Shown in pieces: positions 1 to 44,434 of a stretch of DNA of 64,000 nucleotides. Within the stretch, counting starts at the first letter, position 1. Each line of letters opens with the position of its first letter. A model generated the notes under the pieces. It saw nothing but the letters and a program-made list of their open reading frames with translations, made no database searches and had not been told where the DNA came from. Source of the stretch: Polytrichum commune (taxonomy: Eukaryota; Streptophyta; Polytrichopsida; Polytrichales; Polytrichaceae); contig OX485808.1 of the NCBI GenBank assembly GCA_950295325.1, forward strand, positions 10,230,501-10,294,500, given 5' to 3'. The translations under genes and the position numbers were made by a program.

Positions 1-1
1 A

Positions 2-1608
2 TCACCATCCCCATCACTAACAAACGATAACCTAGACCGACCATCACCCTATGAATACGAAAATATAAATAGAGAAGAGCAAAGAGACACCGTCACTCCA
101 TTAGGAACATTCGAAACGAACACTAGAGAAGGGATACCCCGGAATATTAATTTTGATCAAGACACACAAGAAAGCATAGTAGAGAACGAAAATTCAACAA
201 CAACTCAAAGTGAGGAACCAACATCAAGACAAGTCAACCAAACATTTGAAGAATTTTTGCAACAAGAAAGGGCTAGTGAACAATTATTTGACTATAGAGT
301 ACCCATTAATAGCACAACAAGATCCGNNNNNNNNNNNNNNNNNNNNNNNNNNNNNNNNNNNNNNNNNNNNNNNNNNNNNNNNNNNNNNNNNNNNNNNNNN
401 NNNNNNNNNNNNNNNNNNNNNNNNNNNNNNNNNNNNNNNNNNNNNNNNNNNNNNNNNNNNNNNNNNNNNNNNNNNNNNNNNNNNNNNNNNNNNNNNNNNN
501 NNNNNNNNNNNNNNNNNNNNNNNNNNCAACAAGATCCGGAACAACGTCATTAGGGACGAATATTGGAGGTTCCGGAGGAGGAAGAGGAAGTGGAACTATA
601 GCAATGTCGGGAGGAGCACCACCTCCCCCGAGAAGAGGGAAGATACCTCTTCCCACATACAAAGGAAAAGAGGATCCGGACACTTACATACAAGAGTATG
701 TCAATATATGTCATGCCAATCAAGAAGGAACCGATGCGGAGAAACTAAGATTGTTTCCGGTGACTCTTAAGAAAAAGGCACTAGAATGGTACACTCAATT
801 TCCCGCGAATCACTTTTTGAATTGGAACGATTTAAAGACAACGTTTATCCAACGATTCCGATCAACCAAATCGGAAGGGGAGATCATCAACAACTTGTCA
901 CATGTAAAGCAAAAGAAAGATGAATCGGTGGAAGAGTTTTATGAACGAGTAATGGTAGCGGCGGCTAAAATTCAACCCGCGCCGGGAGAACAAATTAGAA
1001 AAACTTGGTTCATAAATGGACTAAGGAAGGAATACGAGAAATATGTAAACATTTTACCAAGTGATACCTTGGAAGAAGCACTAGCTTCGGCACGAAAGAT
1101 TGAGATGAGCAAAACGAAAAAGGAAAGGATGAGAGAAGACGATTCAAGTGGAGATTCAAGTAGCGATTCCGATGATGATACAAGAAGAAGGAAGAAAAAG
1201 GGAAAGGCTAAGAAAGCCGATGTTACTAAAGATGATTTAAAGGCTCTTAAACAAGAGATAGAGGAACTAGCCATCGGCACTCGGAAGTTTAGGACGGGAG
1301 TCACTTGCCGGAGATGCCGCAATGAAGGCCATTATTCAAATGAGTGCCAATTAAAGAGTTGCTCGAATTGCAATAGCACTACACACAATACAAATGAATG
1401 TGTTTATGATGGAAGAAGGCGAGAAAGGAGATTTGGAGTGAATCAAGTACAACCACAATTGAACAACAACCGGAGAAGGGCGGGAGCCGAGCCTCCGAGA
1501 TTTAGAAATGAAGAGAGACTGCGGTTCGGGGAGAATCGGCGAGATATGAGATACCCCTATCAAGGGAGGGATAAGCTAAGGGATGAAGGATACCCCTATA
1601 ACGGGTAG
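2..1608 (+). CDS. gag: Element A gag (5'-truncated, split by an N gap)
   Basis: Structural capsid/nucleocapsid polyprotein of the retrotransposon; it would form the virus-like particle that packages the RNA. Before the gap the frame starts at base 2; after it the frame is that of base 604, and the frame change is explained by the artificial gap. A Retrotrans_gag-type capsid region follows (about 640-1110, with the motif ALEWYTQF). A serine/aspartate-rich basic linker comes next, then two adjacent CCHC zinc knuckles (CRRCRNEGHYSNEC and CSNCNSTTHNTNEC, about 1306-1392). The tail is rich in YPY repeats and ends at TAG 1606-1608. The same frame stays open after this TAG, so gag-pol may be one frame separated by a stop. 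The twin in element C (40421-42025) has no gap and shows the N terminus. Confidence 0.88.
327..526. other. Assembly gap, 200 N
   Basis: Exactly 200 N. The bases before it (315-326) and after it (527-538) are the same 12-mer, CAACAAGATCCG. In element C the sequence is continuous with a single copy of this 12-mer (around 41491-41502). The gap therefore most likely has no missing bases: it joins two contigs that overlap by 12 bp inside gag. Confidence 0.97.
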
Positions 1609-1730
1609 GAATACCGAAGAGGAGATCGGTACCCGTACGACAATTACCGGAGGGAAGCGACATACCCCTACCGAAGCCAATACTACCCAAGGGAAGAAGA
1701 ATACCCCTATCAGGGCGGCCCTAGAGGACC
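1549..1730 (+). repeat. YPY-repeat tract spanning the gag stop codon
   Basis: The gag tail and the continuation of the same frame after the TAG at 1606-1608 hold at least five tyrosine-proline-tyrosine (YPY) units separated by 8-14 mostly charged residues (R, E, D) with glycine. Because the repeat runs through the stop without a change of frame, the TAG either interrupts an originally continuous gag-pol frame or is a read-through stop. Sequence cannot separate these. Confidence 0.7.
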
Positions 1731-4524
1731 CATTAATCACGGGAGATTGGAGTACCCCAGGGATGTGATGGACAACAATGGCCAAAAAGCCGCGCCGAGA
1801 ATCGGGTACACTGGCCTACCGCGACGGGAAGGCAACGCCGACAAGTGCTATTATTGTCATCAACAGGGTCATAGAAAACCGGAATGCTCATTGTTTAGAA
1901 AACATCAAGAAGAAGCGAATGATTACGCGAAGAAGCCCACGGTGGCGGTAAATGTAGTGACACCAAGTGTGTGTGTGATGACGAGAGCCCAAAGAGCGGC
2001 GAAAGAAAACTCTAAGGAAGAGAGTGAATCGGAAGATGAAGATAATGGAGATGATAGAAAGAGCAAAGACTCGGAGAATAGTGATGATGAAGATGGTGAG
2101 AACACCATAAAGGTTATGGATGATGATAGTGAAGATGAGCAAATGTCACAGGAGGTGCGGGATGCACCGGATGACTTAACATGGAAGAAGAATCGGGAGA
2201 TTCACCATGGAGAAACCGGTAACGCGAAGACGCCAAGGAGAAGGCGAAAGGAACTTAAGTCACAGGAGGTGCGGGATGCACCGGAGGACTTAGAACGGAA
2301 GAAGAATCGGAAGATTCACGATGAAGAAAGCGAAGAGCTTAGTGAAAATGAGAATGAGCCCATGATGAGGCGAAAGGAAAATGAGTCACAGGAGGTGCGG
2401 GATGCACCGGAGGACTCGGAATGGAAGAAGAAGCGGGAGATACACCGCCAAGTAACGAATACGATTAAGAAGATACAACGGGAAGCAGGCGAAGATCTTT
2501 TAGAGCCAGAAGATCTTGCAACGGAGTACCGGACGTCGTCTAGGAGAAAAGCGACGGAAGAAGAACCCCGATCAAGGGTAGGACAAATTATTCGAAAAAT
2601 ACTAGATTCAACTCAAGCAAATATAACAATAGGGCAACTTTTGGAGATAGCCCCTTATTGCAAAAGAAAAGTAATGGAAGCAATTTACACGAACGGGCGA
2701 GATGAGAGGAAAGTACCTCAAACGTATCTCGTAGCCACGAAAGACTTTGATGAAGAGATGCCGATGATAGCGGTATGGACTAAGAATCGACGAATATCCA
2801 ACGTATTACTAGATGGAGGATCGGGAGTGAACATTATTACGGACACTTTGATGGACAAATTGGGAATAGAAAAACAACTTGAAGTGGCACCATTTACGAT
2901 CAAAATGGCGGATCAAAGGAAGGTTACGCCACTTGGAATTATCAAAAATTTGAAAATCACAATTGGAGGTTTGACCTTTAAGGTTACCGTAACGGTAATG
3001 AAGATGGAAAATCAAGAGAATTGTTACTCAATGCTACTTGGACGACCATGGCTTAAGCAAGCACGTGCCAAGCATGATTGGGGAAAGAGTCAATTAGTTC
3101 TATATCAAAAAGGGGTAGATGTATGTATTGGTACTAATCGAAGACCAAAACTCCCGGATTCATCAAGACCAATCAATATCGAAGGTTTTGATTGGGAGGC
3201 CGGATTAACCGATGAAGAGGAACAAATAGTTTATCAAGCTTATCCAAGTTTACACCACATAGCCGATGTAGAACTAGATGGATTGAAGCTATTATATGAA
3301 ACCGATTGCAATATGGTTATGACAAGCATCGAAGGAGAAAATGTAGAGAATATCAACAAAAAGGGACTCAAAGCAAATACCAAGAAGAAGGAGAAACAAG
3401 TCCCTAAGCTCAAAGAAGGAACTCCAAAACAAAAGGAAGACATGGGAGAGAGACCGGTTTATCCATCTCATTTTTATGAGATGAAAGAAGGAGAACAAGC
3501 GATCGATCGAACACCGGCATCCGAAGCGGTGAAAGGAAAAACAATCGCCGGATGGATTATCGAAGATGAAGATATGATAAAGGAGATTAACCTTGGGACA
3601 ACGGAGGATCCCAAAATGGTACGAATAGGAAAGGAACTTGACCCCTCCTATGAAAACCAAGTGATTGAGATACTAAGGGATTACAAGGATGTATTCGCAT
3701 GGACGTATGAGGATATGAAAGGGATACCACCTCACATTTGTGAACACAAGATAGAACTCAAACCAAATACCAAGCCGATCAAGCAAAGCCGATATCGAAT
3801 GAATCCGAATTATGCGGCAAAGGTGAAAGAGGAGATCTACAAATTGCTCAAGGCCGGATTCATATACCCGGTAGATAGAGCGGAATGGCTTTCACCGATA
3901 GTGATAGTACCAAAGACAAATGGAAAGTTAAGAGTATGCGTAGATTATCGGAAACTCAACGGAGCAACAAAATCCGACCCATTTCCATTACCATTCACGG
4001 AGGAGATTCTTGAAACGGTAGCCGGACACGAGATGTTGTCACTACTAGACGGGTTTAGTGGTTACAATCAAGTGAGGATAGCACCGGAAGATCAACCGAA
4101 AACTTGTTTTATTACGGAGTGGGGAGCTTATGCCACTAGAGTTATGTCATTTGGACTTATGAGTGCGCCATCTACTTTTCAAAGGGGAGTAATGACAATT
4201 TTCACGGAGTTTCTAAATGATTTTATGAAAGTATTTTTGGACGATTTTAGTATATATGGGACAAAGGCGGATCATATCAAGCACCTTAAGCTTTGTCTTC
4301 AACGATGTAGGGAGAGTGGGTTAAGTCTTAATCCGGAGAAATGCATGATTTGTGTGACCTCGGGGAGATTACTTGGTCACGTGGTTTGCAAAGAGGGACT
4401 TTTGATAGATCCCAAAAAGATTTCCGTGATTCAAAAATTACCACCACCAACCAATGTCAAGAATTTACGAGCATTCTTAGGCTCGGTAACATACCATAGG
4501 AGATTCATATGGATGTTTGCATAA
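1609..4524 (+). CDS. pol: Element A pol, first part: zinc knuckle, repeats, aspartic protease, reverse transcriptase
   Basis: The frame continues from gag without a shift; the first ATG after the gag stop is at 1747 (925 codons from there). In order: a third CCHC knuckle CYYCHQQGHRKPEC (residues about 34-47 from 1747); an acidic Glu/Asp/Ser region; three SQEVRDAPED repeats (residues about 134-235); aspartic protease with LLDGGSGVNI (active-site Asp codon at 2812) and the downstream LLGRPWL; then reverse transcriptase with YRKLNG, LLDGFSGYNQ and the catalytic box FLDD (Asp codons 4240 and 4243). The frame stops at TAA 4522-4524, but the connection to RNase H continues in the same frame straight after it, so this is a nonsense mutation inside RT-RNase H. 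Element C has the same stop. Confidence 0.9.
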   Translation, partial: EYRRGDRYPYDNYRREATYPYRSQYYPREEEYPYQGGPRGPINHGRLEYPRDVMDNNGQKAAPRIGYTGLPRREGNADKCYYCHQQGHRKPECSLFRKHQEEANDYAKKPTVAVNVVTPSVCVMTRAQRAAKENSKEESESEDEDNGDDRKSKDSENSDDEDGENTIKVMDDDSEDEQMSQEVRDAPDDLTWKKNREIHHGETGNAKTPRRRRKELKSQEVRDAPEDLERKKNRKIHDEESEELSENENEPMMRRKENESQEVRDAPEDSEWKKKREIHRQVTNTIKKIQREAGEDLLEPEDLATEYRTSSRRKATEEEPRSRVGQIIRKILDSTQANITIGQLLEIAPYCKRKVMEAIYTNGRDERKVPQTYLVATKDFDEEMPMIAVWTKNRRISNVLLDGGSGVNIITDTLMDKLGIEKQLEVAPFTIKMADQRKVTPLGIIKNLKITIGGLTFKVTVTVMKMENQENCYSMLLGRPWLKQARAKHDWGKSQLVLYQKGVDVCIGTNRRPKLPDSSRPINIEGFDWEAGLTDEEEQIVYQAYPSLHHIADVELDGLKLLYETDCNMVMTSIEGENVENINKKGLKANTKKKEKQVPKLKEGTPKQKEDMGERPVYPSHFYEMKEGEQAIDRTPASEAVKGKTIAGWIIEDEDMIKEINLGTTEDPKMVRIGKELDPSYENQVIEILRDYKDVFAWTYEDMKGIPPHICEHKIELKPNTKPIKQSRYRMNPNYAAKVKEEIYKLLKAGFIYPVDRAEWLSPIVIVPKTNGKLRVCVDYRKLNGATKSDPFPLPFTEEILETVAGHEMLSLLDGFSGYNQVRIAPEDQPKTCFITEWGAYATRVMSFGLMSAPSTFQRGVMTIFTEFLNDFMKVFLDDFSIYGTKADHIKHLKLCLQRCRESGLSLNPEKCMICVTSGRLLGHVVCKEGLLIDPKKISVIQKLPPPTNVKNLRAFLGSVTYHRRFIWMFA
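2146..2450 (+). repeat. Three tandem coding repeats (SQEVRDAPED...KK.R.IH)
   Basis: The 25-mer beginning TCACAGGAGGTGCGGGATGC recurs at 2146, 2260 and 2386, in frame, with periods of 114 and 126 bases. Each unit encodes SQEVRDAPED/DDL followed by KK.R.IH and a charged spacer. It lies between the third zinc knuckle and the protease. The DNA is more conserved than the spacer, which suggests recent duplication or repeat homogenisation. Confidence 0.9.
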
Positions 4525-5187
4525 ATTACGAGACCTCTTTATGCTCTCCTCAAAAAAGATGAAGCATATGAATGGACGACAAATTGCCAACAAACATTTG
4601 AACTAGTCAAGAGACTTCTAACTACGACACCAATACTAATGGCCCCAAATTGGTCAATGGAATTTCATGTCCATTGTGACGCATCAAACATAGCCATTGG
4701 AGCGGTACTAGCGCAAAAGGTGAATGGAAATATTGACTCACCGATATATTACGCAAGCCAATTATTAAATCAAGCGGAGAAAAATTATAGCACGACGGAA
4801 CGAGAAGCCTTAACAATGGTATATTCGGTAAACAAATTCCGACACTACCTCTTGGCGAATCATTTCGTGTTTTACGTGGATCATCAAGCATTGTTATACT
4901 TGATAAATAGACCGATAATCTCGGGGAGAATCGCAAGATGGATGCTTCTTCTACAAGAATACGATTTTGAGATTATGTATATGCCCGGAAGACGACACGT
5001 GATGGCGGATCACCTCTCAAGAATCGATAATGGAGAACCACCCACCGGAGTAAACGACCAACTACCGGATGCAAATTTGTTTTGTATGGAGGTACTAGAA
5101 GAAGAAGATGATTACATGGAAGAAAAAGAGCAATCAAATGAAGAAAATGAACGAGGAAAGGAAAACATGACACCATGTCTTGAATGA
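4525..5187 (+). CDS. Element A pol, RNase H
   Basis: Degrades the RNA strand of the RNA-DNA hybrid during reverse transcription. The frame is the same as the preceding RT. The signature HCDASNIAIGAVLAQ (first catalytic Asp) begins near 4672, STTEREAL (catalytic Glu) follows near 4791, then FYVDHQAL (Asp) and the closing HVMADHLSRI. An acidic tail leads to TGA 5185-5187, after which the same frame resumes with the first integrase zinc module. There is no second archaeal-type RNase H (aRNH). Confidence 0.9.
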   Translation: MTRPLYALLKKDEAYEWTTNCQQTFELVKRLLTTTPILMAPNWSMEFHVHCDASNIAIGAVLAQKVNGNIDSPIYYASQLLNQAEKNYSTTEREALTMVYSVNKFRHYLLANHFVFYVDHQALLYLINRPIISGRIARWMLLLQEYDFEIMYMPGRRHVMADHLSRIDNGEPPTGVNDQLPDANLFCMEVLEEEDDYMEEKEQSNEENERGKENMTPCLE

Positions 5188-6399
5188 TATATGGTATATG
5201 TTCAACCAACGGAAGATTGGAGGAAACCGTTCAAAGAATATTTCAAGTATGGAAAGTTGTTAACAAAAGGAACAACGGAAGACGAACAAACACGCATAAG
5301 ACGATCTAGTGAACCTTACATCATGGATGGAGATAAATTAATACGAGTTAGCCCAAGTGGAGAATCGAAGACATGCATAGCGGGACAAGTTATTGAGGAA
5401 ATTATCGCGGAAACGCATGAACAAGAAGGCCATCATCAAACCTTCGAAAATACTTGGTTCACCATATTAAGTGGACCTTATTGGTGGCCAACAAAAAAGA
5501 GGGACGTAGCAAGTTATTGCGAAGAATGTCCGGTTTGCTTACGACAAAATGAAGGACGAATACATGAACTAGAAAATGATACTCTAGTACTAGACTCGGT
5601 ATCGGATGACGAGTCAACTACGGAAGAAAACCACTCGACGGATTGGAGAACACCCTATTTTGAGTACTTAAGGAATGGACAAGTAAATGGAGAAAATGTT
5701 ACCAATGAAAAACAACTTCGATGGGCAAACAAATGCAAGCGGTTCGTTCTCAACGAAGGAACCTTGATAAGATTACTACCCAACGAAGATACGCGAATAT
5801 GCGTCACACGAAGTCGAGGAGGAAAACTCATAGCGGCCACTCACAACGCAAAAGGCAAGCATTTGACCTTACCTATGACTAAACAATTAATATTCTTTAG
5901 TCTTTATTGGTGGCCTACAATTGACAAAGACATCAAGTATCACGCGGAATACGAATGTGAAGAATGCATGTTGCAACTCAATGGGAAGCAAGAAGAGATG
6001 AATCTAAAAGATAAACAAGTGACTATATTAAAGCAAATGTCACCATCGGATTGGAAAAAATCTTACCTCAAATACCTATTATTCGGGAAGGTAATGAGCA
6101 ATGACTTAACCGGAGAAGAGAAGGAACGGATTGCGAATAGAAGTCAATTCTTCGCCATCATGAATGGGAAACTAATGAGACGATTTGTCGCCAATGAGAT
6201 ACCTAAAGAATGCATCTCGGAGAATCGGATACAAGGATTTTTAAAGGAACTTCATGAAAAATATCAAACATGTAAAGAAATGATAAAACAAGCAACACAA
6301 GGACCATATTGGTGGCCTACGATGACTCGCGACATTCAAAGTTTTATCAAGCAATACAATGGTACTACGCTAAGGAGTGATTCAACCGAAATGGATTAG
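5188..6399 (+). CDS. Element A: three tandem copies of the integrase N-terminal zinc module
   Basis: The 402-residue frame from ATG 5191 consists of three diverged copies of one module of about 110-140 residues. Each begins with (E/T/S)DW(R/K)(K/T)(P/S) and a YLxxG-like segment, carries a conserved cysteine block, then a His-containing helix and YWWPT (at 5479, 5905 and 6307). This is the arrangement of the H2C2 zinc-binding domain that precedes a gypsy integrase core. Copy 1 (about 5212-5560) and copy 2 (about 5638-5985) keep paired His and CxxC. Copy 3 (about 6046-6393) has Cys in place of the second His and has lost CxxC. The frame ends at TAG 6397-6399, which replaces the Trp codon of the conserved DW that begins the next copy. 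Normal integrases have one such module. Confidence 0.85.
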   Translation, partial: YMVYVQPTEDWRKPFKEYFKYGKLLTKGTTEDEQTRIRRSSEPYIMDGDKLIRVSPSGESKTCIAGQVIEEIIAETHEQEGHHQTFENTWFTILSGPYWWPTKKRDVASYCEECPVCLRQNEGRIHELENDTLVLDSVSDDESTTEENHSTDWRTPYFEYLRNGQVNGENVTNEKQLRWANKCKRFVLNEGTLIRLLPNEDTRICVTRSRGGKLIAATHNAKGKHLTLPMTKQLIFFSLYWWPTIDKDIKYHAEYECEECMLQLNGKQEEMNLKDKQVTILKQMSPSDWKKSYLKYLLFGKVMSNDLTGEEKERIANRSQFFAIMNGKLMRRFVANEIPKECISENRIQGFLKELHEKYQTCKEMIKQATQGPYWWPTMTRDIQSFIKQYNGTTLRSDSTEMD

Positions 6400-8610
6400 A
6401 AAAAACCAATAATGGAATATTTGAACCATAGGAAAACCGGAGATCAACGTCCATTTGAACAAGAGAATGGAACTTACTTTATGGAAGAGGGAGAATTACG
6501 GAAGGAAGTAGACCGCGGAGAAACAAAGATATGTATCGCGGGAGATCCAATCAAGCATCTAATCATACGAGTGCATGAACAAAATGATTATCATCTCAAC
6601 CCGAACGATACTATTCAACAAATTCTCAACGGGCTTTATTGGTGGCCTACTATAGCACAAGACACGGGACATTATATCAATGGAGAATGTCCGAGATGTA
6701 AGAAGAAAACAACAACTAAAATAGAATGCGGAGCAATTACCACCGATCCACAAGAGGATTGGAGAACACCATTTATTGACTACTTATCGCATGGAAGATT
6801 GACAACACCGGCAACGACTTCTCAAAGACAACAAATAGCGATAAGAAGTAGATTTTTTCAACTAATCAATGGAGACCAATTAATCAAGGAAGGGGCCGAT
6901 GGAATGAAAATGAGATGTGTCTCCGGACCAATTACCGAGGCGATCATCGCCGAAGCACATGAAGGCATTGCGGGAGGACATTTCGCGGCAAACATCACAT
7001 TACACAAAATATTAACGGCTCTTTATTGGTGGCCTACTATGAAAAGGGACGTATATTTATATTGCAAACAATGTGACATATGTCAAAGAGTGGGACCAAA
7101 AGTATCAAAATCCGCACAACCACTACATCCAATTATGCATACAGAGGTGTTTCAAAGATGGGGTTTGGACTTTATAGGACCAATCAATCCTCCAGCTAAA
7201 GGTACTAAAAATAGATACATTATTACCGCCACGGATTACACTACCAAATGGGTAGAAGCAAGAGCACTTAAGGATAATACCGCGGCATCTACCGCGAAAT
7301 TCATATTTGAGGAGATTATCACCAAATTCGGATGTCCGATTGAACTAGTTAGTGATCAAGGGAGTCACTTTCTAAATGAGACAATCCAAATCTTAACCAA
7401 GACATTTATGGTCTTACATCGTAAATCGACAACTTACTACCCTCAAGCCAACGGACAAGCTGAGAGCACCAACAAAGTCATTAAAACGACACTTACCAAA
7501 ATGGTAAACGCCAATCGTACGGATTGGGACACTAAATTATATGCGGCACTATGGGCGTATAGAACGGCATACAAAGTCACCACCAAGCATACACCATTTT
7601 CATTGGTATTTGGAACGGAAGCATTACTTCCATTAACATTCATCTACAACGGGGAGAATCTCCAAAGGAATCAAGAATGGTATCCCGTTCTTAAACGAAG
7701 AATGGAACAATTAAAGACACTAGATTTAACCCGTATTGAAGCCGAGGAGAATATCGAGCATACTCAAACCATGAGAAAAAGAAGACAAGATAAAACCTTA
7801 ATGGAAGGCAAGAGGTGCAAACATTGCAAGAAACCCTCTTATGACACCAAGGAAAAGACTGAGAACACTCATCAAGCAAAGGATAAATCACAAGAAAACA
7901 AAAGTCCAAAATTTTACAAAGGTCAAAAGATTTTGTGGCATCAAAGGATGAACAAACCCGGTCCAGGCAAATTCCGAATCCGATGGAGTGGACCTTACGA
8001 GATTACGGAAATTTACGGTAACAACACCGTGGATGTAAGCACATTGCAAGGAGAAAATCTTGGAAGGGTAAATATGAGTAAGATTAAACCTTACCATGAA
8101 CCCCTTGAAGCAAAGGCATATGTTTTAGAAGTGGATGACGCCACGAACTCACCATTTGACAATACAAGTACAAATTGTATAAACAGATCCATTGATACCA
8201 ACCACCACGAGGGAGAATCAAGCCATTCAAGGACAAGTTCATTCTACGAAGGGCAAAAAGTAGTGACCAAATACCTATCAAACAAACAAGACGACGCACC
8301 TTTTGAGAAGCAAAAATGGGTAGGCCCTTACACCATCACAAGAATCCATGATGACGATACCATGGAGATCAAGACCGTTCATCAAAAACAATTGGGACGA
8401 TGGCGATCAAAGAAATTTTTACCATACGCCGGGGTTAATCCCAACCAAGTTATCACTTTTGATCAAGGAGGAATGAAGACTTTTACATCCCCGGATTATG
8501 ATGAAGTCCATCACAAAATGCTTGAATGTTATTCTATACAACCAATGAGAAAGGGGACTTTGGATGAAAACTTATCAACGGTACCGGAACGACAAAAATT
8601 GGAAGTATAG
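6400..8610 (+). CDS. int: Element A integrase: two more zinc modules, DDE core, two GPY/F domains
   Basis: Joins element cDNA to host DNA. The longest open stretch starts at ATG 6412 (732 codons). Residues 1-110 form the fourth zinc module (YWWPT at 6637, CPRC at 6688). Residues about 115-235 form the fifth (HEGIAGGHF, YWWPT at 7024, CKQCDICQ), which is closest to a standard H2C2 domain. The catalytic core is complete: Asp in LDFIGP (7168), Asp in SDQGSHF (7354) and Glu in GQAEST (7462), a DD35E spacing. A CxxC segment (RCKHCKK) lies between the core and the C-terminal domains. Two GPY/F (SH3-like) domains follow, with KFRIRWSGPYEI (about 7909-8105) and KWVGPYTI (about 8237-8440). No chromodomain is visible. 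Ends at TAG 8608-8610. Confidence 0.92.
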   Translation, partial: KKPIMEYLNHRKTGDQRPFEQENGTYFMEEGELRKEVDRGETKICIAGDPIKHLIIRVHEQNDYHLNPNDTIQQILNGLYWWPTIAQDTGHYINGECPRCKKKTTTKIECGAITTDPQEDWRTPFIDYLSHGRLTTPATTSQRQQIAIRSRFFQLINGDQLIKEGADGMKMRCVSGPITEAIIAEAHEGIAGGHFAANITLHKILTALYWWPTMKRDVYLYCKQCDICQRVGPKVSKSAQPLHPIMHTEVFQRWGLDFIGPINPPAKGTKNRYIITATDYTTKWVEARALKDNTAASTAKFIFEEIITKFGCPIELVSDQGSHFLNETIQILTKTFMVLHRKSTTYYPQANGQAESTNKVIKTTLTKMVNANRTDWDTKLYAALWAYRTAYKVTTKHTPFSLVFGTEALLPLTFIYNGENLQRNQEWYPVLKRRMEQLKTLDLTRIEAEENIEHTQTMRKRRQDKTLMEGKRCKHCKKPSYDTKEKTENTHQAKDKSQENKSPKFYKGQKILWHQRMNKPGPGKFRIRWSGPYEITEIYGNNTVDVSTLQGENLGRVNMSKIKPYHEPLEAKAYVLEVDDATNSPFDNTSTNCINRSIDTNHHEGESSHSRTSSFYEGQKVVTKYLSNKQDDAPFEKQKWVGPYTITRIHDDDTMEIKTVHQKQLGRWRSKKFLPYAGVNPNQVITFDQGGMKTFTSPDYDEVHHKMLECYSIQPMRKGTLDENLSTVPERQKLEV

Positions 8611-9048
8611 TCACTCAATTATCAACAAAAGGAGAAAATTTCAAAGGGAGTATACCATACATATATTTATCGGAGGATTCACGACCAAACACATTATGCG
8701 AGACAACCATGATCATCAACAACAACACATATGACAAGTACAAAGTACCTCCAAAATATAAGACGGCAAACGAATTAACCATTAAGTGGTTACAACACAT
8801 GTGTGAGATTTGGTACATAATCTTCATACAACTCATAGTTCAAAGTTTGTACTTACATCCAAGGAATTCATCCATCCGTTCATCAAATCATTCAAGAGGG
8901 GATACAACACTTACAAATGCGGAAGTCAAGAAGAATTATTATACAACTCAAGCGTCAAAGGGACGAACTCAACCACAAATTGGAGATATGGAGTTAACTT
9001 CCTACACCACAACAATGTTGTTTCTCAAAACGGAAGATACCTCCAAAT
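8611..9048 (+). pseudogene. Region between pol and 3' ORF, decayed coding sequence likely
   Basis: Short open stretches occupy two frames in succession (from 8709 in one frame, from 8810 to 9052 in another) and lead into the frame of the next ORF. This looks like the N-terminal part of the 3' reading frame broken by frameshifts. No domain is recognised. A non-coding linker is equally possible. Confidence 0.4.
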
Positions 9049-12603: not shown

Positions 12604-12620
12604 GGGCAGGATCTCAATCC

Positions 12621-12635
12621 GGGAGGGGGATAAAA
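12621..12635 (+). other. Polypurine tract of element A
   Basis: GGGAGGGGGATAAAA is an uninterrupted purine run except for one T and directly abuts the LTR start TGTTGAATACAACA. This is the expected primer for plus-strand DNA synthesis and fixes the LTR boundary. Confidence 0.88.
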
Positions 12636-15627: not shown

Positions 15628-15648
15628 TAATTGGCGACCATCGGGGGA
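15628..15648 (+). other. Primer-binding-site-like motif at the wrong LTR of element B
   Basis: Directly inside the left LTR, on the + strand, TAAT is followed by TGGCGACCATCGGGGGA. This is the geometry of an LTR followed by a tRNA primer binding site, but gag-pol reads the other way and a polypurine tract is expected here. The start TGGCGACCAT equals the start of the primer site of element C. No purine run is visible next to this LTR. Confidence 0.5.
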
Positions 15649-15688
15649 TGAATCCAAACATCTCTTGCTCCAAGGGTAAGTTGCCTAG

Positions 15689-16882
15689 TCAAGCTCGGTA
15701 CTCCTTACATCTACTTCCCGATGTACGGGTAGGAAAGAGCTCACCATTCAACGTTTCCAATTGAATTGAATTATTAGGAAAGACCTCTTAGACAAGGTAA
15801 GGTCCTAACCATACCGCATTGAATTTCGCCGGAAATTCAAGCTTTCGTGCGTCTTGAATCATGACCATCATTCCCGGTGTTAGGGCCCTTCTCTTATGTC
15901 GTTTGTCGAAAGTAATCTTTCTCCTTCTTTGGGTTGCCTCAATATGTTGAGCCGCCATTCTCCTCCCTTCGTCAAGTGCTTCCAAATCGGTTAGTCGATT
16001 TCGTAAGGATTGACTTTCGGTAAGTCTCGTACTCACGGCCACCCTAAGTGACTCGACTTCATATTCGATTGGTAGTGTCGCTTCAAGACCATAGACTAAG
16101 GAAAATGGTGTAGCACGCGTAGTTACCTTATAGGTTGTACGGTATGCCCAAAGTGCCGCCGTTAGTTTCGTATCCCAATCCCGCTTCGAGTCTATAACCG
16201 TCTTGCGTAGTATACTCACCAAAATTCCGTTAACCCTTTCCGTTTGTCCATTGGTTTGTGGGTGGTAGGGAGTAGTCTTCCGGTGATCAATTTTAAATTT
16301 CTCTGTCATCTCTCGAATCAAGTCATTCAAAAAGTGAGTACCCCTATCACTTACTAGGATCTTCGGCACCCCGAACCGCGAAATTATGTTTTCGTACATA
16401 AATGTTGCCGCGTGTTCCGCCGTGTCGGTCTTCACCGCTTTGGCTTCCGCCCACTTGGTGAGGTACTCGGTTGCCACCACAATATATTTCATTCCTTTTG
16501 AAGATTGGGGATGGACCTCACCCACATAGTCGATGCCCCATTTTTCGAAAGGAATTAAGGGTAATGATACATGTAAAGGCATCTCCATTCTAAGGTCGTC
16601 TCGGGCATACCGTTGGCAAGCGTCGCATTTCCTTACATAGTCATGGGCGTCCTTAAATAGTGTAGGCCAAAAGTAGCCCGCTCTAAGTATTTTTTGCCCG
16701 GTGAGTTGACCCGAGAAGTGACCGCCGCAAGCGCTATCGTGGCAAGCGATTAAAATCGCTTCAACCTCCGTTTTTGACACGCATCGTCGTAAAATACCAT
16801 CGGACCCCCTTCTAAACAACCTATGGCCCACTACAACAAATTGCCTACTATTTACCCTCACCTTCCTTCTCTCTTCTTTTGT
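15689..16882 (-). CDS. int: Element B integrase (one internal stop near the C terminus)
   Basis: Same frame as the RT-RNase H part upstream. The open part 16861-15788 holds the H2C2 zinc module (CHDSACGGHF, YFWPT, CDACQR), and a complete catalytic triad: Asp in GIDYVG, Asp in SDRGTHF, Glu in GQTERVNG. It then reaches the GPY/F domain at WLGPYLV. TAA at 15788-15790 interrupts this domain; the same frame then stays open to TGA 15689-15691, only about 60 bases from the LTR. Unlike elements A and C it has one zinc module and one GPY/F domain, the usual architecture. Confidence 0.9.
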
Positions 16883-18088
16883 TCACTCTTTGGGCAACTT
16901 GTGGGTTGTTAGAAATTCCACTATGCCCGCATACCACTCCGGTGTAGAAGTGACCACAAAGAGGCTATCATCTACTAACATATCATTTACCGGATTTTTT
17001 CCTATCTCCTCCGACAACCTAGACAAGTGGTCCGCTTGTAAATGCATACGACCCGGTTTATATTCCACCGTGTAGTCGAATTCTTCTAATAACAAAACCC
17101 ACCTAGCTAACCTACCACTTAACTCCGCCTTGTTAATTAGATACTTGATAGCCATGTGGTCAACAAAAAATACAACCGGGTTGCACATGAGGTAATGCCT
17201 AAACTTTTTAACGGAAAACACCATGGCTAGGCACTCCCTCTCCGTCGTAGAGTAGTTTCTTTCGGCGGGGGTCAATTGCTTACTCGCATAAGCTATAGGT
17301 TGATCCTTCTCTTTTTCTCCCGTTGCTTGACAAAGCGCACTCCCTATTGCCACATTACTAGCATCACAATAGACGTGAAAAGGTTTACCCCAATTGGGTG
17401 GTATCAACACCGGATAGGTGCTCAACCTATCCCGCAATTCCTCAAAGGCTTTTTGACAAGCATCCGTCCACTCGAATTTGACATCCTTTTTGAGCAAATG
17501 GGTAATGGGCACCGCTATCTTTGAAAAATTAGGAATAAGTTCCCGGTACCATCCCACATGTCCTAACAACTTAGAGATCCCCTTGGAATTGGTTGGAGTT
17601 GCCAAGTCGCTTATGGCCGCAATCTTATCCGGATCGGGTTCTCTACCTTTCTCACTAACAACATAACCCAACAACACTCCCTTATTCACTCCCAAAAATG
17701 TCTTATCCGGGTTCAATGCTAACCTCATCTTCCTACACCTAACCAATGCCTCCCTAACACAATGTAGGTGATCATCCACATTACTTTGTGTGCTAAAATC
17801 GTCCACAAAGACGGTCATGGATTTGAACAACAAGTCGGTGAAGATATACATTACTAATCGTTGGAAAGTAGCCGGGGCATTACATAACCCAAATGGCATC
17901 ACTACCCACACAAAAGTACCCCAAGGTGTAGTAAAAGCCGTTTTATGGATATCTTGGAGGGCTATGGAAATTTGATTATAACCCGCATACCCATCCATAA
18001 AGGTATATCGCGAATGACCTCCAACCTCCTCAAGCAACAAGGTGATAAAAGGTAAGGGGAAGTGATCCTTTTGTGTGCACGAATTCAA
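16883..18088 (-). CDS. pol: Element B reverse transcriptase (C-terminal part) and RNase H
   Basis: The open frame starts inside RT after a frameshift at 18123-18131. It has the RT core (FMDGYAGYNQ, then FVDDFS with the catalytic Asp pair, GYVVSEKG), the connection domain, and RNase H (YCDASNVAIG, STTERECLAM, FFVDHMAI, LQADHLSRL). It ends at TGA 16883-16885, after which integrase continues in the same frame, so the stop is a mutation within pol. Confidence 0.9.
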   Translation of the reverse strand: MNSCTQKDHFPLPFITLLLEEVGGHSRYTFMDGYAGYNQISIALQDIHKTAFTTPWGTFVWVVMPFGLCNAPATFQRLVMYIFTDLLFKSMTVFVDDFSTQSNVDDHLHCVREALVRCRKMRLALNPDKTFLGVNKGVLLGYVVSEKGREPDPDKIAAISDLATPTNSKGISKLLGHVGWYRELIPNFSKIAVPITHLLKKDVKFEWTDACQKAFEELRDRLSTYPVLIPPNWGKPFHVYCDASNVAIGSALCQATGEKEKDQPIAYASKQLTPAERNYSTTERECLAMVFSVKKFRHYLMCNPVVFFVDHMAIKYLINKAELSGRLARWVLLLEEFDYTVEYKPGRMHLQADHLSRLSEEIGKNPVNDMLVDDSLFVVTSTPEWYAGIVEFLTTHKLPKE

Positions 18089-18092
18089 TTTC

Positions 18093-22816: not shown

Positions 22817-22835
22817 GCTCCCGGCGGACGCACCA
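22817..22835 (-). other. Primer binding site of element B
   Basis: On the minus strand, four bases (TAAT) inside the 5' LTR, TGGTGCGTCCGCCGGGAGC begins with TGG, the complement of a tRNA CCA end. Position and spacing are as expected for minus-strand priming. I cannot assign the tRNA with confidence. Confidence 0.6.
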
Positions 22836-22839
22836 ATTA

Positions 22840-26472: not shown

Positions 26473-26582
26473 CCTCCACTGTGGAGATTCTGTCATGGTG
26501 ATTATGTTTGTCTCCAAGGTGAGGTGCCTACAACATTGGATATCAGGATGAGGCGCATTATCCTTTGGATGAAGGAGGTGTT

Positions 26583-27092: not shown

Positions 27093-29393
27093 TGATGCAC
27101 CCCGTGGGTCGTTCTCTTGCAAATTAGCTCAAGAAGACTCACGGTGAGACATCACGTAAATTTATATTCGCTTGAGAACTACCGTGCCTCATTAATATGT
27201 TCGGTCTCGAATTAATAATCCCTCTCTTCTCCTTATGATATGAATATAATTATTGGAGTGAACACAATCTCATTATCTTAATTCTTACTCTCAATGTAAG
27301 GCATCATTGATAATAAGAACCATTAGATTTAAAGAAAGCTTCAAGAGGTGTAACAATATCCTCGATAATAATATAGTTTTCAATAAATCATACGAGTCTT
27401 TAAGACTCGTAATTCATAAGCATCAATCACATAAATGATAGTATCTTATAATAATGAAGAAGATATAATATTCTTGAGTCTTCCTTTTTAAGCTCAAGTG
27501 TTACTACGTATAATATTGTAACTTGACAATTATGCATATAGTAGTTATAAGTTCATGAACACTTCATTAATTGTTTTGCAATGTCACGTTGAACTTCAAA
27601 GTGTTTTAATAACAAGAATAATTATACTCTCTTGAGTTTTACTCAAGAATAAGAACTCCTCTTTGATTGTTAATGACATCCAACAACTCACAAAGTATCT
27701 TAAGAGAATAAACACTTTTACTACAAAGTGTTTCTTGATGACGAGAAGATAAACCTATCTCTCTTGAGTTTTGCTCAAGAGAAGAGAGATCTTCTCTTGA
27801 ATAGATAATCCTTCAAATTGTAATGACATCCAACAACTCACAAAGAATCTTAAAGTAAGAAGCTTCAATAACAATTGTAGTAAGTAAATTATCTTATATC
27901 AATATTACTTCATTCATATGTATTCAAACTTTGATATGAATTAATGTCTTCATCATTCTTATTAATCATAAGTTCAACAATCAATATGTAGTATAATATG
28001 TATAATACTTATAAGTCAATTATGTAGTTTTCAATAATAAGCTCCTCCTCTTTTGAAGGAGTTGTAATCGTTAAGTTGTTTTGCTTAAATCATAACATGC
28101 ATATAATTCTTCAATCATTCAATCACATGTATATTTATAATTCCCTTTTGAGGAGATCAATGATAAGTTCCGCTTTGAGAGATAATCTTGTTTCCTTCAC
28201 TCAAGTTTGACAATCGCTTTCTCAATTCAATCTCTCTCAAAGTCCCATTGATTCTCCAATTTGTCTTGAGCGCTTTGTTCTCACCCTCACACTATCTTTT
28301 GAGTTCTTTCTCAAAAGAGTCTACTCAATCTACTCTACTCTCGGTTGCTCAATCACTTAAGCTACAAAGTACCATTGACGACTCGTAGTTCAAATTGAGA
28401 GAGGTAGAAAGATCACACGCATTTGTAGAAAAGATAAGTGTATTGCAAAAGTTCCTCGAGAGGAGAGTTACAAAAGCTTCAAGTGATTCTTGACACTCAA
28501 ATTCAAGATAACTTCGTTGTGTAGAAAATGAGGTAATAGTCTCCTAATTTGCTTCCCTTATGTAGTCTTCTCTTCCTAATCCAAAATCTACATTAAGAGT
28601 GGTTGTGATCTCCATTTTTCTAAATAACTATCTATCTTCAAAATATGTAGATGATTCCTATCTTAAACGGTTATAACCGTTTTATCACCTTAATGTTCCT
28701 ATTTCCAAGATTACTCTAACTCCTTGTTGTGGTTACATTCTAAACTCTTTTTGGGGATCAATCAAATCTTCATGTTGATTGAATAATGATCATGCTAGTA
28801 GAATGTACCATAGTTCTATATTCCCCTTAGTGTCTTCATAATGTCTCTCGAACTTAATATCCCAAAATTCCCATATATTCCATAATCGTGTCTCCTCAAA
28901 ATCCTACATTCTATCTATTCCATAATCATGCTTCCTTGGATAGTCATTCATCCTCAATTAAAATCCTAAATACATAATTATGTCTCTTCAATATCCTACC
29001 TTCGTAATACTTCATAATTATGCCTCAAAATAGTTTTTAAACCTCGAAATCTTACATTCCTATATACTCCATAATGCTTAACACTAACTCCTTTATACTA
29101 ATATAATAGCCTTCTACTTAATTCCTAAGTTCTCCTTCACTAAAACTCTGATTGTCCTATACCCGTGGGTAAGGGACCCTATAACAGTGCGACTTCCTTG
29201 TATTTCCGTGACAGTGGACCCTATAACCGTGGTCGAGGTTGCTTCGCCTCCGAAGTGCATTCTTCAACCGTTCCTTTGAATTTCGGTGTTCCTCTTCTAC
29301 TTCCACTTGCTTGTCTTTGATGTTAGATTGAGATTTCGGTGTTCCTCTTCCTACTTCCACTTGCTTGTTCTTGATATAATGTTGTATTCAACA
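27093..29393 (-). repeat. Element C 3' LTR, complete, 2301 bp
   Basis: Runs from TGTTGAATACAACA (minus strand, 29393) to GGTGCATCA (27093). Contains repeated blocks: TAATGACATCCAACAACTCA at about 27671 and 27821, and Leu-zipper-unlike inverted CTCTTGAG/CTCAAGAG motifs near 27633-27656 and 27761-27781. The 18-bp AACGG palindrome is at 28665-28682. It is AT-rich, with no coding capacity. Confidence 0.9.
27743..27796. repeat. Hairpin in the C LTR at the position of the 5' LTR breakpoint
   Basis: GAGAAGAT (27743-27750) pairs with ATCTTCTC (27789-27796), and inside it CTCTTGAG (27761-27768) pairs with CTCAAGAG (27774-27781) around a 5-base loop. In the truncated 5' LTR the sequence ends exactly after GAGAAGAT (44427-44434). 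Confidence 0.85.
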
Positions 29394-29408
29394 TTTTATC
29401 CCCCTCCC
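29394..29408 (-). other. Polypurine tract of element C
   Basis: Mirror of 12621-12635: on the minus strand GGGAGGGGGATAAAA abuts the LTR start. Confidence 0.88.
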
Positions 29409-33418: not shown

Positions 33419-35629
33419 CTATACTTCCAATTTTTGTCGTTCCGGTACCGTTGATAAGTTTTCATCCAAAGTCCCCTTTCTCATTGGTTGTATAGAATAA
33501 CATTCAAGCATTTTGTGATGGACTTCATCATAATCCGGGGATGTAAAAGTCTTCATTCCTCCTTGATCAAAAGTGATAACTTGGTTGGGATTAACCCCGG
33601 CGTATGGTAAAAATTTCTTTGATCGCCATCGTCCCAATTGTTTTTGATGAACGGTCTTGATCTCCATGGTATCGTCATCATGGATTCTTGTGATGGTGTA
33701 AGGGCCTACCCATTTTTGCTTCTCAAAAGGTGCGTCGTCTTGTTTGTTTGATAGGTATTTGGTCACTACTTTTTGCCCTTCGTAGAATGAACTTGTCCTT
33801 GAATGGCTTGATTCTCCCTCGTGGTGGTTGGTATCAATGGATCTGTTTATACAATTTGTACTTGTATTGTCAAATGGTGAGTTCGTGGCGTCATCCACTT
33901 CTAAAACATATGCCTTTGCTTCAAGGGGTTCATGGTAAGGTTTAATCTTACTCATATTTACCCTTCCAAGATTTTCTCCTTGCAATGTGCTTACATCCAC
34001 GGTGTTGTTACCGTAAATTTCCGTAATCTCGTAAGGTCCACTCCATCGGATTCGGAATTTGCCTGGACCGGGTTTGTTCATCCTTTGATGCCACAAAATC
34101 TTTTGACCTTTGTAAAATTTTGGACTTTTGTTTTCTTGTGATTTATCCTTTGCTTGATGAGTGTTCTCAGTCTTTTCCTTGGTGTCATAAGAGGGTTTCT
34201 TGCAATGTTTGCACCTCTTGCCTTCCATTAAGGTTTTATCTTGTCTTCTTTTTCTCATGGTTTGAGTATGCTCGATATTCTCCTCGGCTTCAATACGGGT
34301 TAAATCTAGTGTCTTTAATTGTTCCATTCTTCGTTTAAGAACGGGATACCATTCTTGATTCCTTTGGAGATTCTCCCCGTTGTAGATGAATGTTAATGGA
34401 AGTAATGCTTCCGTTCCAAATACCAATAAAAATGGTGTATGCTTGGTGGTGACTTTGTATGCCGTTCTATACGCCCATAGTGCCGCATATAATTTAGTGT
34501 CCCAATCCGTACGATTGGCGTTTACCATTTTGGTAAGTGTCGTTTTAATGACTTTGTTGGTGCTCTCAGCTTGTCCGTTGGCTTGAGGGTAGTAAGTTGT
34601 CGATTTACGATGTAAGACCATAAATGTCTTGGTTAAGATTTGGATTGTCTCATTTAGAAAGTGACTCCCTTGATCACTAACTAGTTCAATCGGACATCCG
34701 AATTTGGTGATAATCTCCTCAAATATGAATTTCGCGGTAGATGCCGCGGTATTATCCTTAAGTGCTCTTGCTTCTACCCATTTGGTAGTGTAATCCGTGG
34801 CGGTAATAATGTATCTATTTTTAGTACCTTTAGCTGGAGGATTGATTGGTCCTATAAAGTCCAAACCCCATCTTTGAAACACCTCTGTATGCATAATTGG
34901 ATGTAGTGGTTGTGCGGATTTTGATACTTTTGGTCCCACTCTTTGACATATGTCACATTGTTTGCAATATAAATATACGTCCCTTTTCATAGTAGGCCAC
35001 CAATAAAGAGCCGTTAATATTTTGTGTAATGTGATGTTTGCCGCGAAATGTCCTCCCGCAATGCCTTCATGTGCTTCGGCGATGATCGCCTCGGTAATTG
35101 GTCCGGAGACACATCTCATTTTCATTCCATCGGCCCCTTCCTTGATTAATTGGTCTCCATTGATTAGTTGAAAAAATCTACTTCTTATCGCTATTTGTTG
35201 TCTTTGAGAAGTCGTTGCCGGTGTTGTCAATCTTCCATGCGATAAGTAGTCAATAAATGGTGTTCTCCAATCCTCTTGTGGATCGGTGGTAATTGCTCCG
35301 CATTCTATTTTAGTTGTTGTTTTCTTCTTACATCTCGGACATTCTCCATTGATATAATGTCCCGTGTCTTGTGCTATAGTAGGCCACCAATAAAGCCCGT
35401 TGAGAATTTGTTGAATAGTATCGTTCGGGTTGAGATGATAATCATTTTGTTCATGCACTCGTATGATTAGATGCTTGATTGGATCTCCCGCGATACATAT
35501 CTTTGTTTCTCCGCGGTCTACTTCCTTCCGTAATTCTCCCTCTTCCATAAAGTAAGTTCCATTCTCTTGTTCAAATGGACGTTGATCTCCGGTTTTCCTA
35601 TGGTTCAAATATTCCATTATTGGTTTTTT
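33419..35629 (-). CDS. int: Element C integrase: zinc modules 4 and 5, DDE core, two GPY/F domains
   Basis: Mirror of 6400-8610; ATG at 35617, 732 codons, stop at 33419. The product differs from that of A by one residue: the motif after HTPF reads LLVFG here and SLVFG in A, caused by one base (34428 versus 7601). Gypsy integrases normally have Ser or Ala-type small residues there, so A is likely the older state; this last point is inference. Catalytic triad and both GPY/F domains are intact. Confidence 0.92.
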   Translation of the reverse strand, partial: KKPIMEYLNHRKTGDQRPFEQENGTYFMEEGELRKEVDRGETKICIAGDPIKHLIIRVHEQNDYHLNPNDTIQQILNGLYWWPTIAQDTGHYINGECPRCKKKTTTKIECGAITTDPQEDWRTPFIDYLSHGRLTTPATTSQRQQIAIRSRFFQLINGDQLIKEGADGMKMRCVSGPITEAIIAEAHEGIAGGHFAANITLHKILTALYWWPTMKRDVYLYCKQCDICQRVGPKVSKSAQPLHPIMHTEVFQRWGLDFIGPINPPAKGTKNRYIITATDYTTKWVEARALKDNTAASTAKFIFEEIITKFGCPIELVSDQGSHFLNETIQILTKTFMVLHRKSTTYYPQANGQAESTNKVIKTTLTKMVNANRTDWDTKLYAALWAYRTAYKVTTKHTPFLLVFGTEALLPLTFIYNGENLQRNQEWYPVLKRRMEQLKTLDLTRIEAEENIEHTQTMRKRRQDKTLMEGKRCKHCKKPSYDTKEKTENTHQAKDKSQENKSPKFYKGQKILWHQRMNKPGPGKFRIRWSGPYEITEIYGNNTVDVSTLQGENLGRVNMSKIKPYHEPLEAKAYVLEVDDATNSPFDNTSTNCINRSIDTNHHEGESSHSRTSSFYEGQKVVTKYLSNKQDDAPFEKQKWVGPYTITRIHDDDTMEIKTVHQKQLGRWRSKKFLPYAGVNPNQVITFDQGGMKTFTSPDYDEVHHKMLECYSIQPMRKGTLDENLSTVPERQKLEV

Positions 35630-36841
35630 CTAATCCATTTCGGTTGAATCACTCCTTAGCGTAGTACCATTGTATTGCTTGATAAAACTTTGAATGTCGC
35701 GAGTCATCGTAGGCCACCAATATGGTCCTTGTGTTGCTTGTTTTATCATTTCTTTACATGTTTGATATTTTTCATGAAGTTCCTTTAAAAATCCTTGTAT
35801 CCGATTCTCCGAGATGCATTCTTTAGGTATCTCATTGGCGACAAATCGTCTCATTAGTTTCCCATTCATGATGGCGAAGAATTGACTTCTATTCGCAATC
35901 CGTTCCTTCTCTTCTCCGGTTAAGTCATTGCTCATTACCTTCCCGAATAATAGGTATTTGAGGTAAGATTTTTTCCAATCCGATGGTGACATTTGCTTTA
36001 ATATAGTCACTTGTTTATCTTTTAGATTCATCTCTTCTTGCTTCCCATTGAGTTGCAACATGCATTCTTCACATTCGTATTCCGCGTGATACTTGATGTC
36101 TTTGTCAATTGTAGGCCACCAATAAAGACTAAAGAATATTAATTGTTTAGTCATAGGTAAGGTCAAATGCTTGCCTTTTGCGTTGTGAGTGGCCGCTATG
36201 AGTTTTCCTCCTCGACTTCGTGTGACGCATATTCGCGTATCTTCGTTGGGTAGTAATCTTATCAAGGTTCCTTCGTTGAGAACGAACCGCTTGCATTTGT
36301 TTGCCCATCGAAGTTGTTTTTCATTGGTAACATTTTCTCCATTTACTTGTCCATTCCTTAAGTACTCAAAATAGGGTGTTCTCCAATCCGTCGAGTGGTT
36401 TTCTTCCGTAGTTGACTCGTCATCCGATACCGAGTCTAGTACTAGAGTATCATTTTCTAGTTCATGTATTCGTCCTTCATTTTGTCGTAAGCAAACCGGA
36501 CATTCTTCGCAATAACTTGCTACGTCCCTCTTTTTTGTTGGCCACCAATAAGGTCCACTTAATATGGTGAACCAAGTATTTTCGAAGGTTTGATGATGGC
36601 CTTCTTGTTCATGCGTTTCCGCGATAATTTCCTCAATAACTTGTCCCGCTATGCATGTCTTCGATTCTCCACTTGGGCTAACTCGTATTAATTTATCTCC
36701 ATCCATGATGTAAGGTTCACTAGATCGTCTTATGCGTGTTTGTTCGTCTTCCGTTGTTCCTTTTGTTAACAACTTTCCATACTTGAAATATTCTTTGAAC
36801 GGTTTCCTCCAATCTTCCGTTGGTTGAACATATACCATATA
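35630..36841 (-). CDS. Element C: zinc modules 1-3 before integrase
   Basis: Mirror of 5188-6399; ATG 36838, 402 codons. Three copies of the DW...YWWPT module; the third lacks the second His and CxxC. It ends at the TAG that replaces the conserved Trp codon of module 4 (35630-35632). Identical to the A product. Confidence 0.85.
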   Translation of the reverse strand, partial: YMVYVQPTEDWRKPFKEYFKYGKLLTKGTTEDEQTRIRRSSEPYIMDGDKLIRVSPSGESKTCIAGQVIEEIIAETHEQEGHHQTFENTWFTILSGPYWWPTKKRDVASYCEECPVCLRQNEGRIHELENDTLVLDSVSDDESTTEENHSTDWRTPYFEYLRNGQVNGENVTNEKQLRWANKCKRFVLNEGTLIRLLPNEDTRICVTRSRGGKLIAATHNAKGKHLTLPMTKQLIFFSLYWWPTIDKDIKYHAEYECEECMLQLNGKQEEMNLKDKQVTILKQMSPSDWKKSYLKYLLFGKVMSNDLTGEEKERIANRSQFFAIMNGKLMRRFVANEIPKECISENRIQGFLKELHEKYQTCKEMIKQATQGPYWWPTMTRDIQSFIKQYNGTTLRSDSTEMD

Positions 36842-43776: not shown

Positions 43777-44434
43777 TGATGCACCCCGTGGGTCGTTCTC
43801 TTGCAAATTAGCTCAAGAAGACTCACGGTGAGACATCACGTAAATTTATATTCGCTTGAGAACTACCGTGCCTCATTAATATGTTCGGTCTCGAATTAAT
43901 AATCCCTCTCTTCTCCTTATGATATGAATATAATTATTGGAGTGAACACAATCTCATTATCTTAATTCTTACTCTCAATGTAAGGCATCATTGATAATAA
44001 GAACCATTAGATTTAAAGAAAGCTTCAAGAGGTGTAACAATATCCTCGATAATAATATAGTTTTCAATAAATCATACGAGTCTTTAAGACTCGTAATTCA
44101 TAAGCATCAATCACATAAATGATAGTATCTTATAATAATGAAGAAGATATAATATTCTTGAGTCTTCCTTTTTAAGCTCAAGTGTTACTACGTATAATAT
44201 TGTAACTTGACAATTATGCATATAGTAGTTATAAGTTCATGAACACTTCATTAATTGTTTTGCAATGTCACGTTGAACTTCAAAGTGTTTTAATAACAAG
44301 AATAATTATACTCTCTTGAGTTTTACTCAAGAATAAGAACTCCTCTTTGATTGTTAATGACATCCAACAACTCACAAAGTATCTTAAGAGAATAAACACT
44401 TTTACTACAAAGTGTTTCTTGATGACGAGAAGAT
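43777..44434 (-). repeat. Element C 5' LTR, truncated to 658 bp
   Basis: Same sequence and length as 27093-27750, then an abrupt switch to the inverted copy of 27070 leftward. Most of U3, with its promoter, is lost, so this copy should not be transcribed from its own LTR. Confidence 0.93.

Follow-up and report, generated by a model that had tools for sequence, protein, structure and literature searches.

The integrase of a Ty3/gypsy element in Polytrichum commune has five tandem N-terminal modules in front of its catalytic core, and relatives in the same genome have five, eight or eleven. In the usual view, an integrase has one N-terminal domain, a core and a C-terminal domain, and extra N-terminal domains are supplied only via additional chains. 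The Ty3/gypsy integrase itself is known; chains with 5, 8 or 11 natural N-terminal units in a row are an unusual variant of it. All 16 module classes, including one that has lost its zinc ligands, are under purifying selection among the genome copies compared.

The integrase and its element

The features below lie in the window, the whole stretch of 64,000 nucleotides that was analysed.

529..1605, plus strand: Gag with capsid and zinc knuckle (Pfam)
1609..4521, plus strand: protease and reverse transcriptase (Pfam)
4525..5184, plus strand: RNase H, adjoining the array on its 5' side and followed by TGA (Pfam, open reading frame)
5212..5571, plus strand: module 1 (A1), NED-like half and HHCC (alignment, Pfam, ligand check)
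5641..6006, plus strand: module 2 (A2), HHCC kept (alignment, Pfam, ligand check)
6049..6387, plus strand: module 3 (A3), YWWPT kept, zinc ligands lost (alignment, Pfam, ligand check)
6400..6738, plus strand: module 4 (A4), HHCC kept, in-frame TAG at 6397-6399 just before it (alignment, Pfam, ligand check)
6757..7119, plus strand: module 5 (A5), core-adjacent, canonical integrase N-terminal domain (alignment, Pfam, tree)
7150..7800, plus strand: integrase catalytic core (rve) with D 7168, D 7354 and E 7462, the last two 35 residues apart
7900..8094, plus strand: C-terminal GPY-type module, copy 1
8230..8427, plus strand: second copy of the C-terminal GPY-type module, with 35% identity to the first (E 1e-13)
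16580..16939, minus strand: single integrase N-terminal module of a different element, used as an internal comparison
27093..27750, minus strand: 3' LTR of the minus-strand element, equal to the 5' LTR in 658 of 658 bases
34910..36817, minus strand: mirrored five-module array in a second element copy that has both LTRs
43777..44434, minus strand: 5' LTR of the minus-strand element

The repeat unit, of about 115 residues, begins at DW(R/K), followed by a NED-like half, a His pair, YWWPT and CxxC. The five homologous blocks described in the earlier note are borne out by codon positions, alignment, BLASTP and Pfam, with YWWPT at 5479, 5905, 6307, 6637 and 7024 (spacings 426, 402, 330 and 387). 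The YWWPT codons occur in this frame and in the mirrored minus-strand copy only. The five copies can be aligned over at least 100 residues with 27-42% identity and pairwise BLASTP E-values of 3e-8 to 2e-31. They do share one frame, as had been claimed, but the TAG at 6397-6399 splits copies 1-3 from copies 4-5 into two open stretches. The claim of a repeated zinc module also holds in part, since the zinc module is repeated but the unit is larger and includes the NED-like upstream half. The earlier reading overlooked two features, the TAG that separates copy 3 from copy 4 in frame and the duplication of the C-terminal GPY-type module; by eye, the open frames P0030 and P0033 also have both GPY modules.

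Each copy matches the Pfam Integrase_H2C2 profile (PF17921), the check that the earlier note had proposed, with E-values of 1.5e-10, 2.8e-3, 3.8e-5, 1.7e-4 and 7e-16 for modules 1-5. Modules 1 and 5 are above its cut-off of 25.5 bits, while modules 2-4 score 18.2, 24.1 and 22.1 bits; the two open stretches score 70.9 bits (three matched stretches) and 72.5 bits (two matched stretches). As a control, the module profile has no match (E up to 10) across 2000 shuffles of the window protein. Against solved structures, the five-module profile matches the integrase of prototype foamy virus (PFV) with an E-value of 7e-7, aligning to its residues 31-107, and that of Ty3 weakly (E 0.027). The last module and core of a relative align with PFV integrase as well. 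The possibility that copies 1-4 are not homologous to the H2C2 domain, which had been named as a refutation, thus fails, the copies being homologues of that domain and of the PFV N-terminal domain (NTD). The four predicted zinc ligands of PF17921 are present in four of the five window modules at the sequence level; the HHCC check agrees with the earlier observation that copies 1, 2, 4 and 5 have the paired His and CxxC and copy 3 does not.

The rve core carries an intact D,D-35-E, and the HHCC domain directly before it is module 5, both as in Ty3/gypsy integrases, but in place of the single N-terminal domain usual there, five modules are found. In the module tree, module 5 clusters with N-terminal domains from elements that have a single module, while the 47 upstream modules of the window lineage form their own group (100/100). 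Judged by sequence, module 5 is the ordinary integrase N-terminal domain. The description of the array as copies of an N-terminal zinc module is therefore right as to five homologues, with the qualification that copy 5 is that domain itself.

The domain order of the element, Gag-PR-RT-RH-INT by Pfam, and its 658-bp LTRs are those of Ty3/gypsy elements. A chromodomain, the mark of chromoviruses, has no match (PF00385, E <=1) in 6400-8607, and the additional RNase H (PF13456, E <=1) has none in the pieces searched; an additional, archaeal-type RNase H defines the Tat clade in the accessible part of PMC6317226. The whole coding region is in one frame with four in-frame stops, TAG 1606, TAA 4522, TGA 5185 and TAG 6397. 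The plus-strand copy is truncated by the left window edge and has 1 mismatch in 12,902 bases relative to the minus-strand copy, which spans 27093-44434 and has both 658-bp LTRs, 100% identical to each other. Identical LTRs together with four stops mark the window copy as very young and yet decayed, the insertion of a broken element; we infer that enzymes from other copies produced it. No target-site duplication is seen at the LTR edges of the window element. A third copy, 17 kb to the left, has an identical array protein sequence. Because the window has perfect inverted repeats and a 200-N gap whose edges share a 12-base overlap, these three near-identical copies on C6, two of them in the window, may be either true duplicates or an assembly product.

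Relatives, array length and origin

Protein searches give two subfamilies, A (the window type) and B; in one search 120 of 326 matches were listed, and the relatives number at least those listed. The B array is tiled by metagenome proteins: P0149 covers RNase H-B1-B2-B3, P0143 covers B1 to B6 and, by eye, the start of B7, and P0028 covers B3 to B8 and the core. Adjacent modules assignable to A or B classes are consecutive in 105 of 106 pairs; the sole exception, P0190, may represent a third subfamily. This conserved order, together with relatives that have the array in open frames, agrees with the module amplification in the element lineage that the earlier note had suggested. In the module tree, modules group by position across elements rather than by element, which indicates that the array already existed when the copies diverged. 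At position 1, the A and B modules are mutual nearest classes and fall outside the group that the remaining upstream modules all form (97/97); B6 plus B7 is the sister of A4 (98/85). In metagenomic B pairs, upstream modules are 60-86% identical, with no internal gaps where both proteins cover them (a partial module of 41 residues is 49% identical), and linkers are 17-73% identical; the ranges overlap in single cases, as in P0025/P0024, where linker 6 is 64% and its module 60% identical. A linker 4, of 10 residues, is 80-100% identical between relatives. Searches of viral and bacterial/archaeal sequence collections gave no relatives.

In the assembly that contains the window (407.8 Mb, 64 contigs), at least 18 copies are 82-94% identical to window modules 1-3 over at least 365 residues. 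The A copies have five modules, and three of them (L015, L017 and L024) have all five without a stop in the array. B copies were detected with an A query, so that their number is a lower bound; 20 B regions were retrieved for analysis. Five of these have eight modules (L044, L051, L052, L054 and L058) and three have eleven (L039, L040 and L041), stop-free from first to last module and with the core motif in frame; at the places of the latter three, open frames of 3306, 3716 and 3652 residues, respectively, are listed, and L040 has HHCC in 11 of 11 modules. Among the others, one stop is present in five eight-module copies (L045, L048, L050, L053 and L055) and three eleven-module copies (L042, L043 and L047), L056 has two stops, and L046, L049 and L057 are frameshifted. 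The window array is therefore not a decay product, as several relatives have array and core in one open frame, and the alternative that relatives would have one module and this copy be a unique product of decay gives way to relatives with 5, 8 and 11.

The eleven-module layout is alpha1-3, beta1-3 and then modules 4-8, while the eight-module copies have either the alpha block (L048 and L050, which cluster with the first blocks at 100/100) or the beta block. Differences in array length thus come down to modules 1-3, a block of which there are two types, present singly or in succession. In the tree of modules 4-8 and the core, eleven-module copies are dispersed among eight-module copies. The simplest reading is that whole three-module blocks have been gained and lost, or exchanged.

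The earlier statement that gypsy integrases have one H2C2 domain is incomplete, since two-module integrases occur in two other clades. Of 51 proteins in which the RNase H end is visible, 30 have one module, 17 have two before the core and 4 end before the core. On the catalytic-core tree, multi-module integrases form three separate clades, and the other two clades have two modules each. The fewest state changes are three, both in a quick tree of 105 rows (80 of them with a state) and in a careful tree of 73 rows, built after the removal of long and near-identical ones. The core tree rejects the grouping of multi-module elements in one clade (AU p 8e-5, 29 multi-module rows against 76 others, the group being defined after the tree had been viewed). 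On the module tree, a single origin of all upstream modules has an AU p of 0.108, or 0.185 with the P0037 type alone. Three gains of the multi-module state would be the simplest reading of these trees; one early gain with losses in single-module lineages is also possible because the module tree is compatible with a common origin.

The two-module integrases have distinctive features of their own. In Tat-type elements with an additional RNase H (P0121 and its kin; the named member is P0137 from Fagus sylvatica), a second N-terminal unit is present upstream of the canonical one, as in the window lineage, but there are only two modules, PF13456 is ahead of the integrase and the core-tree clade is separate. 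P0037, P0039, P0048, P0056, P0065, P0072 and P0195 also have two tandem N-terminal units before the core; unlike the window lineage, this type groups with elements of the fern Adiantum nelumboides (99/93), P0195 being outside the tree. Among the openly accessible literature matches listed, no report of tandem or duplicated integrase-module arrays is recognisable from titles and abstract openings. Neither 'zinc' nor 'HHCC' occurs in the available portion of PMC6317226, nor 'zinc' or 'H2C2' in that of PMC11963269.

Constraint, zinc ligands and charge

The A sample consists of 14 copies of 29 loci (L009-L037), leaving out L010 and L011, which are copies of L009, and 13 that are frameshifted, truncated, lacking modules or repeating a place. 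The B sample consists of 17 of the 20 regions, omitting the three frameshifted ones. Stop-bearing copies were retained and their stop codons skipped; pN/pS was counted by an NG86-type method that ignores transition bias, for which the frame control partly compensates. Pooled ratios are 0.25, 0.18, 0.30, 0.29 and 0.12 for A1-A5, 0.17, 0.21, 0.25, 0.23, 0.27, 0.32, 0.24 and 0.09 for B1-B8, and 0.15, 0.12 and 0.19 for B1-B3 of the first block. The core has 0.04 in B and 0.24 in A, where some copies are out of frame in the core and the median omega is 0.06. In disjoint pairs, with each copy used once, the ratios are 0.08-0.33 (p <=9e-9 for every module), and the same DNA in other frames gives 0.79-2.98. 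The past selection on the copies proposed in the earlier note is thus supported for every class (pooled range 0.09-0.32). Two linkers with few sites each were tested: one is unconstrained (0.68, p 0.44) and the other, A linker 1, is constrained (0.18, p 2e-3, 3 pairs). The low ratio of A linker 1 and the conservation of A linker 4 speak against a picture of neutral linkers.

HHCC is kept in most modules of the genome copies: in 12/13, 13/14, 0/14, 13/14 and 14/14 copies for A1-A5, in 17, 17, 16, 17, 15, 9, 17 and 17 of 17 for B1-B8, and in 6/6 for each first-block module. Retention is lower in the metagenome proteins, which include decayed copies (for example, A4 6/12, A5 2/4 and B6 11/18). 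A3 is constrained (0.30 pooled, 0.33 disjoint) even though its ligands are gone in 14/14 copies, suggesting that zinc is dispensable in some modules; P0001, one A relative, has HHCC in A3. Mean net charge is characteristic of each position, with some spread between copies: A1, A4, B1, B6 and B7 are acidic, while A2, A3, A5, B3 and B8 are basic. This position-specific charge speaks for specialised modules that are not interchangeable, and against all of them merely binding nucleic acid.

Proposed role of the array

By analogy with known integrases, the array is probably part of the integrase and may act as a set of specialised docking units, a reading favoured with some reserve. PFV integrase has a NED, an HHCC NTD, a D,D-35-E core and a CTD, as here, but only one N-terminal unit instead of 5, 8 or 11 in tandem, and the window element also has two GPY-type modules. 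Its NED is required for the complex with viral DNA, according to the portion of PMC3738965 available. The Ty3 integrase (7q5b), also of the Ty3/gypsy type with NED, NTD, CCD and CTD, has one N-terminal unit and a chromodomain (PMC8632968, in part), for which the window element has no match. The last module would do the usual job of synapsis, viral-DNA contact and NTD exchange between catalytic chains, and the upstream modules could add multivalent contacts in cis as extra NED/NTD units, for assembly or tethering. The basic modules A2, A3 and B3 might contact cDNA ends, neighbouring integrase chains or RNA, and the acidic modules A1, A4, B1, B6 and B7 might contact proteins, such as chromatin or other element proteins. 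The array would then do covalently what large retroviral intasomes achieve with additional integrase chains. The MVV hexadecamer intasome likewise has many NTDs per complex, but they come from 16 separate chains, whereas here many are on one chain. Predicted models have a repeated helix and strand pattern at modest confidence (mean pLDDT 64 and 52, pTM 0.27 and 0.26), with an unreliable arrangement of modules; the comparison of folds mainly reflects the core (model 652-815) and hardly tests the upstream modules, and for the window piece with three modules the model matches PFV integrase with an E-value of only 0.18.

As a special case of docking, each module could read a different host chromatin or transcription-factor partner, so that the array sets the choice of insertion site. 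The diverged module charges are in keeping with such a targeting device, as are the NED-TFIIIC interaction reported for Ty3, whose NED also aids in holding the LTRs (PMC8632968, in the part available), and the multivalent chromatin contact proposed for the 16-chain MVV intasome in the accessible text of PMC9065133; it is nevertheless on the unlikely side. Less likely still, the element protease could cut off the upstream modules to give separate small zinc proteins that serve as RNA chaperones, packaging factors or nuclear-import adaptors. Linkers between modules are variable, and deletion relatives without a core keep modules: by eye, B7 is joined to the C-terminal module in P0148 and P0180 by an internal deletion, and in P0008, P0012, P0017 and P0021 the start of A5 leads to the region that follows the second GPY module. 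However, the modules keep their order as far as the one next to the core, and the deletion derivatives may be merely non-autonomous copies; in the window, the A-type junction has CCGG at either edge, which is compatible with template switching.

Neutral tandem amplification kept by recent copying, with modules 1-4 functionless, would fit the stops in the window copy and the variable length of the B array (8 to 11). It is highly improbable and is contradicted by the per-module substitution pattern, with low pN/pS in all classes and in disjoint pairs against values near or above 1 in shifted frames, as well as by the retained zinc ligands. An assembly artefact or chimera as the source of the repeat is hardly credible: although the perfect inverted copies and the gap with overlapping edges would suit it, it is contradicted by like arrays in metagenome proteins and at many other places in the genome.

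A bolder reading, although somewhat doubtful, is that of a cis-multivalent integrase in which up to 11 NED-NTD units per chain replace the extra chains of large intasomes or read several distinct partners; evolution would have tuned the array length (5, 8 or 11) by adding and removing entire blocks. The ligand-free A3, kept by selection, would then be an N-terminal fold recruited to a zinc-independent role. At least two tandem N-terminal units are present in three clades of plant-type elements, and annotation that counts one 'INT' domain could miss them. With 5-11 selected N-terminal units in cis, in different lengths in one genome, these elements offer a way to test the role of the N-terminal unit in assembly, DNA-end binding, chromatin tethering and RNA binding.

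C-terminal part of the window integrase and the region behind it

The integrase of the window element, a Ty3/gypsy LTR retrotransposon, carries two GPY-type C-terminal modules in tandem at window 7900-8427, whereas those relatives of the eight- or eleven-module subfamily B that were inspected by eye show a single one. Further open stretches, parts of which are coiled-coil-like in appearance, lie 3' of the integrase at window 8998-12603 and are possibly additional ORFs of the element; a Pfam search with five stretches from this region gave no matches above the cut-off.

Other features and repeat structure of the window

Two further features are present in the window:

14758-24410, minus strand: second Ty3/gypsy element, with identical 871-bp LTRs and one N-terminal module
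55918-56043, minus strand: SSU rRNA-like fragment of eukaryotic type (59 bits)

Perfect or near-perfect inverted repeats occupy window 1-13428, 22839-27070, 28601-41502 and 44432-48663, and the edges of a 200-N gap overlap. The repeats and the gap reflect either a recent duplication or a product of the assembly.

Related proteins with several modules or without a core

In the Tat-type integrases P0121, P0123, P0125, P0137 (Fagus sylvatica) and their kin, the canonical N-terminal module is preceded by a second one, which lies downstream of the extra RNase H. The separate two-module elements P0037, P0039 and P0072 have an aspartic-protease-like segment in an unusual location, 3' of the integrase; in P0037 it was recognized from a weak Pfam match, in P0039 from precomputed Pfam annotation and in P0072 by eye. 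The module pair of P0190 is near neither B nor the five-module, window-type subfamily A, and this protein perhaps represents a third subfamily. Modules are retained and the catalytic core is absent in P0148 and P0180, and in P0008, P0012, P0017 and P0021, with junctions in common; these core-less derivatives may constitute non-autonomous families.
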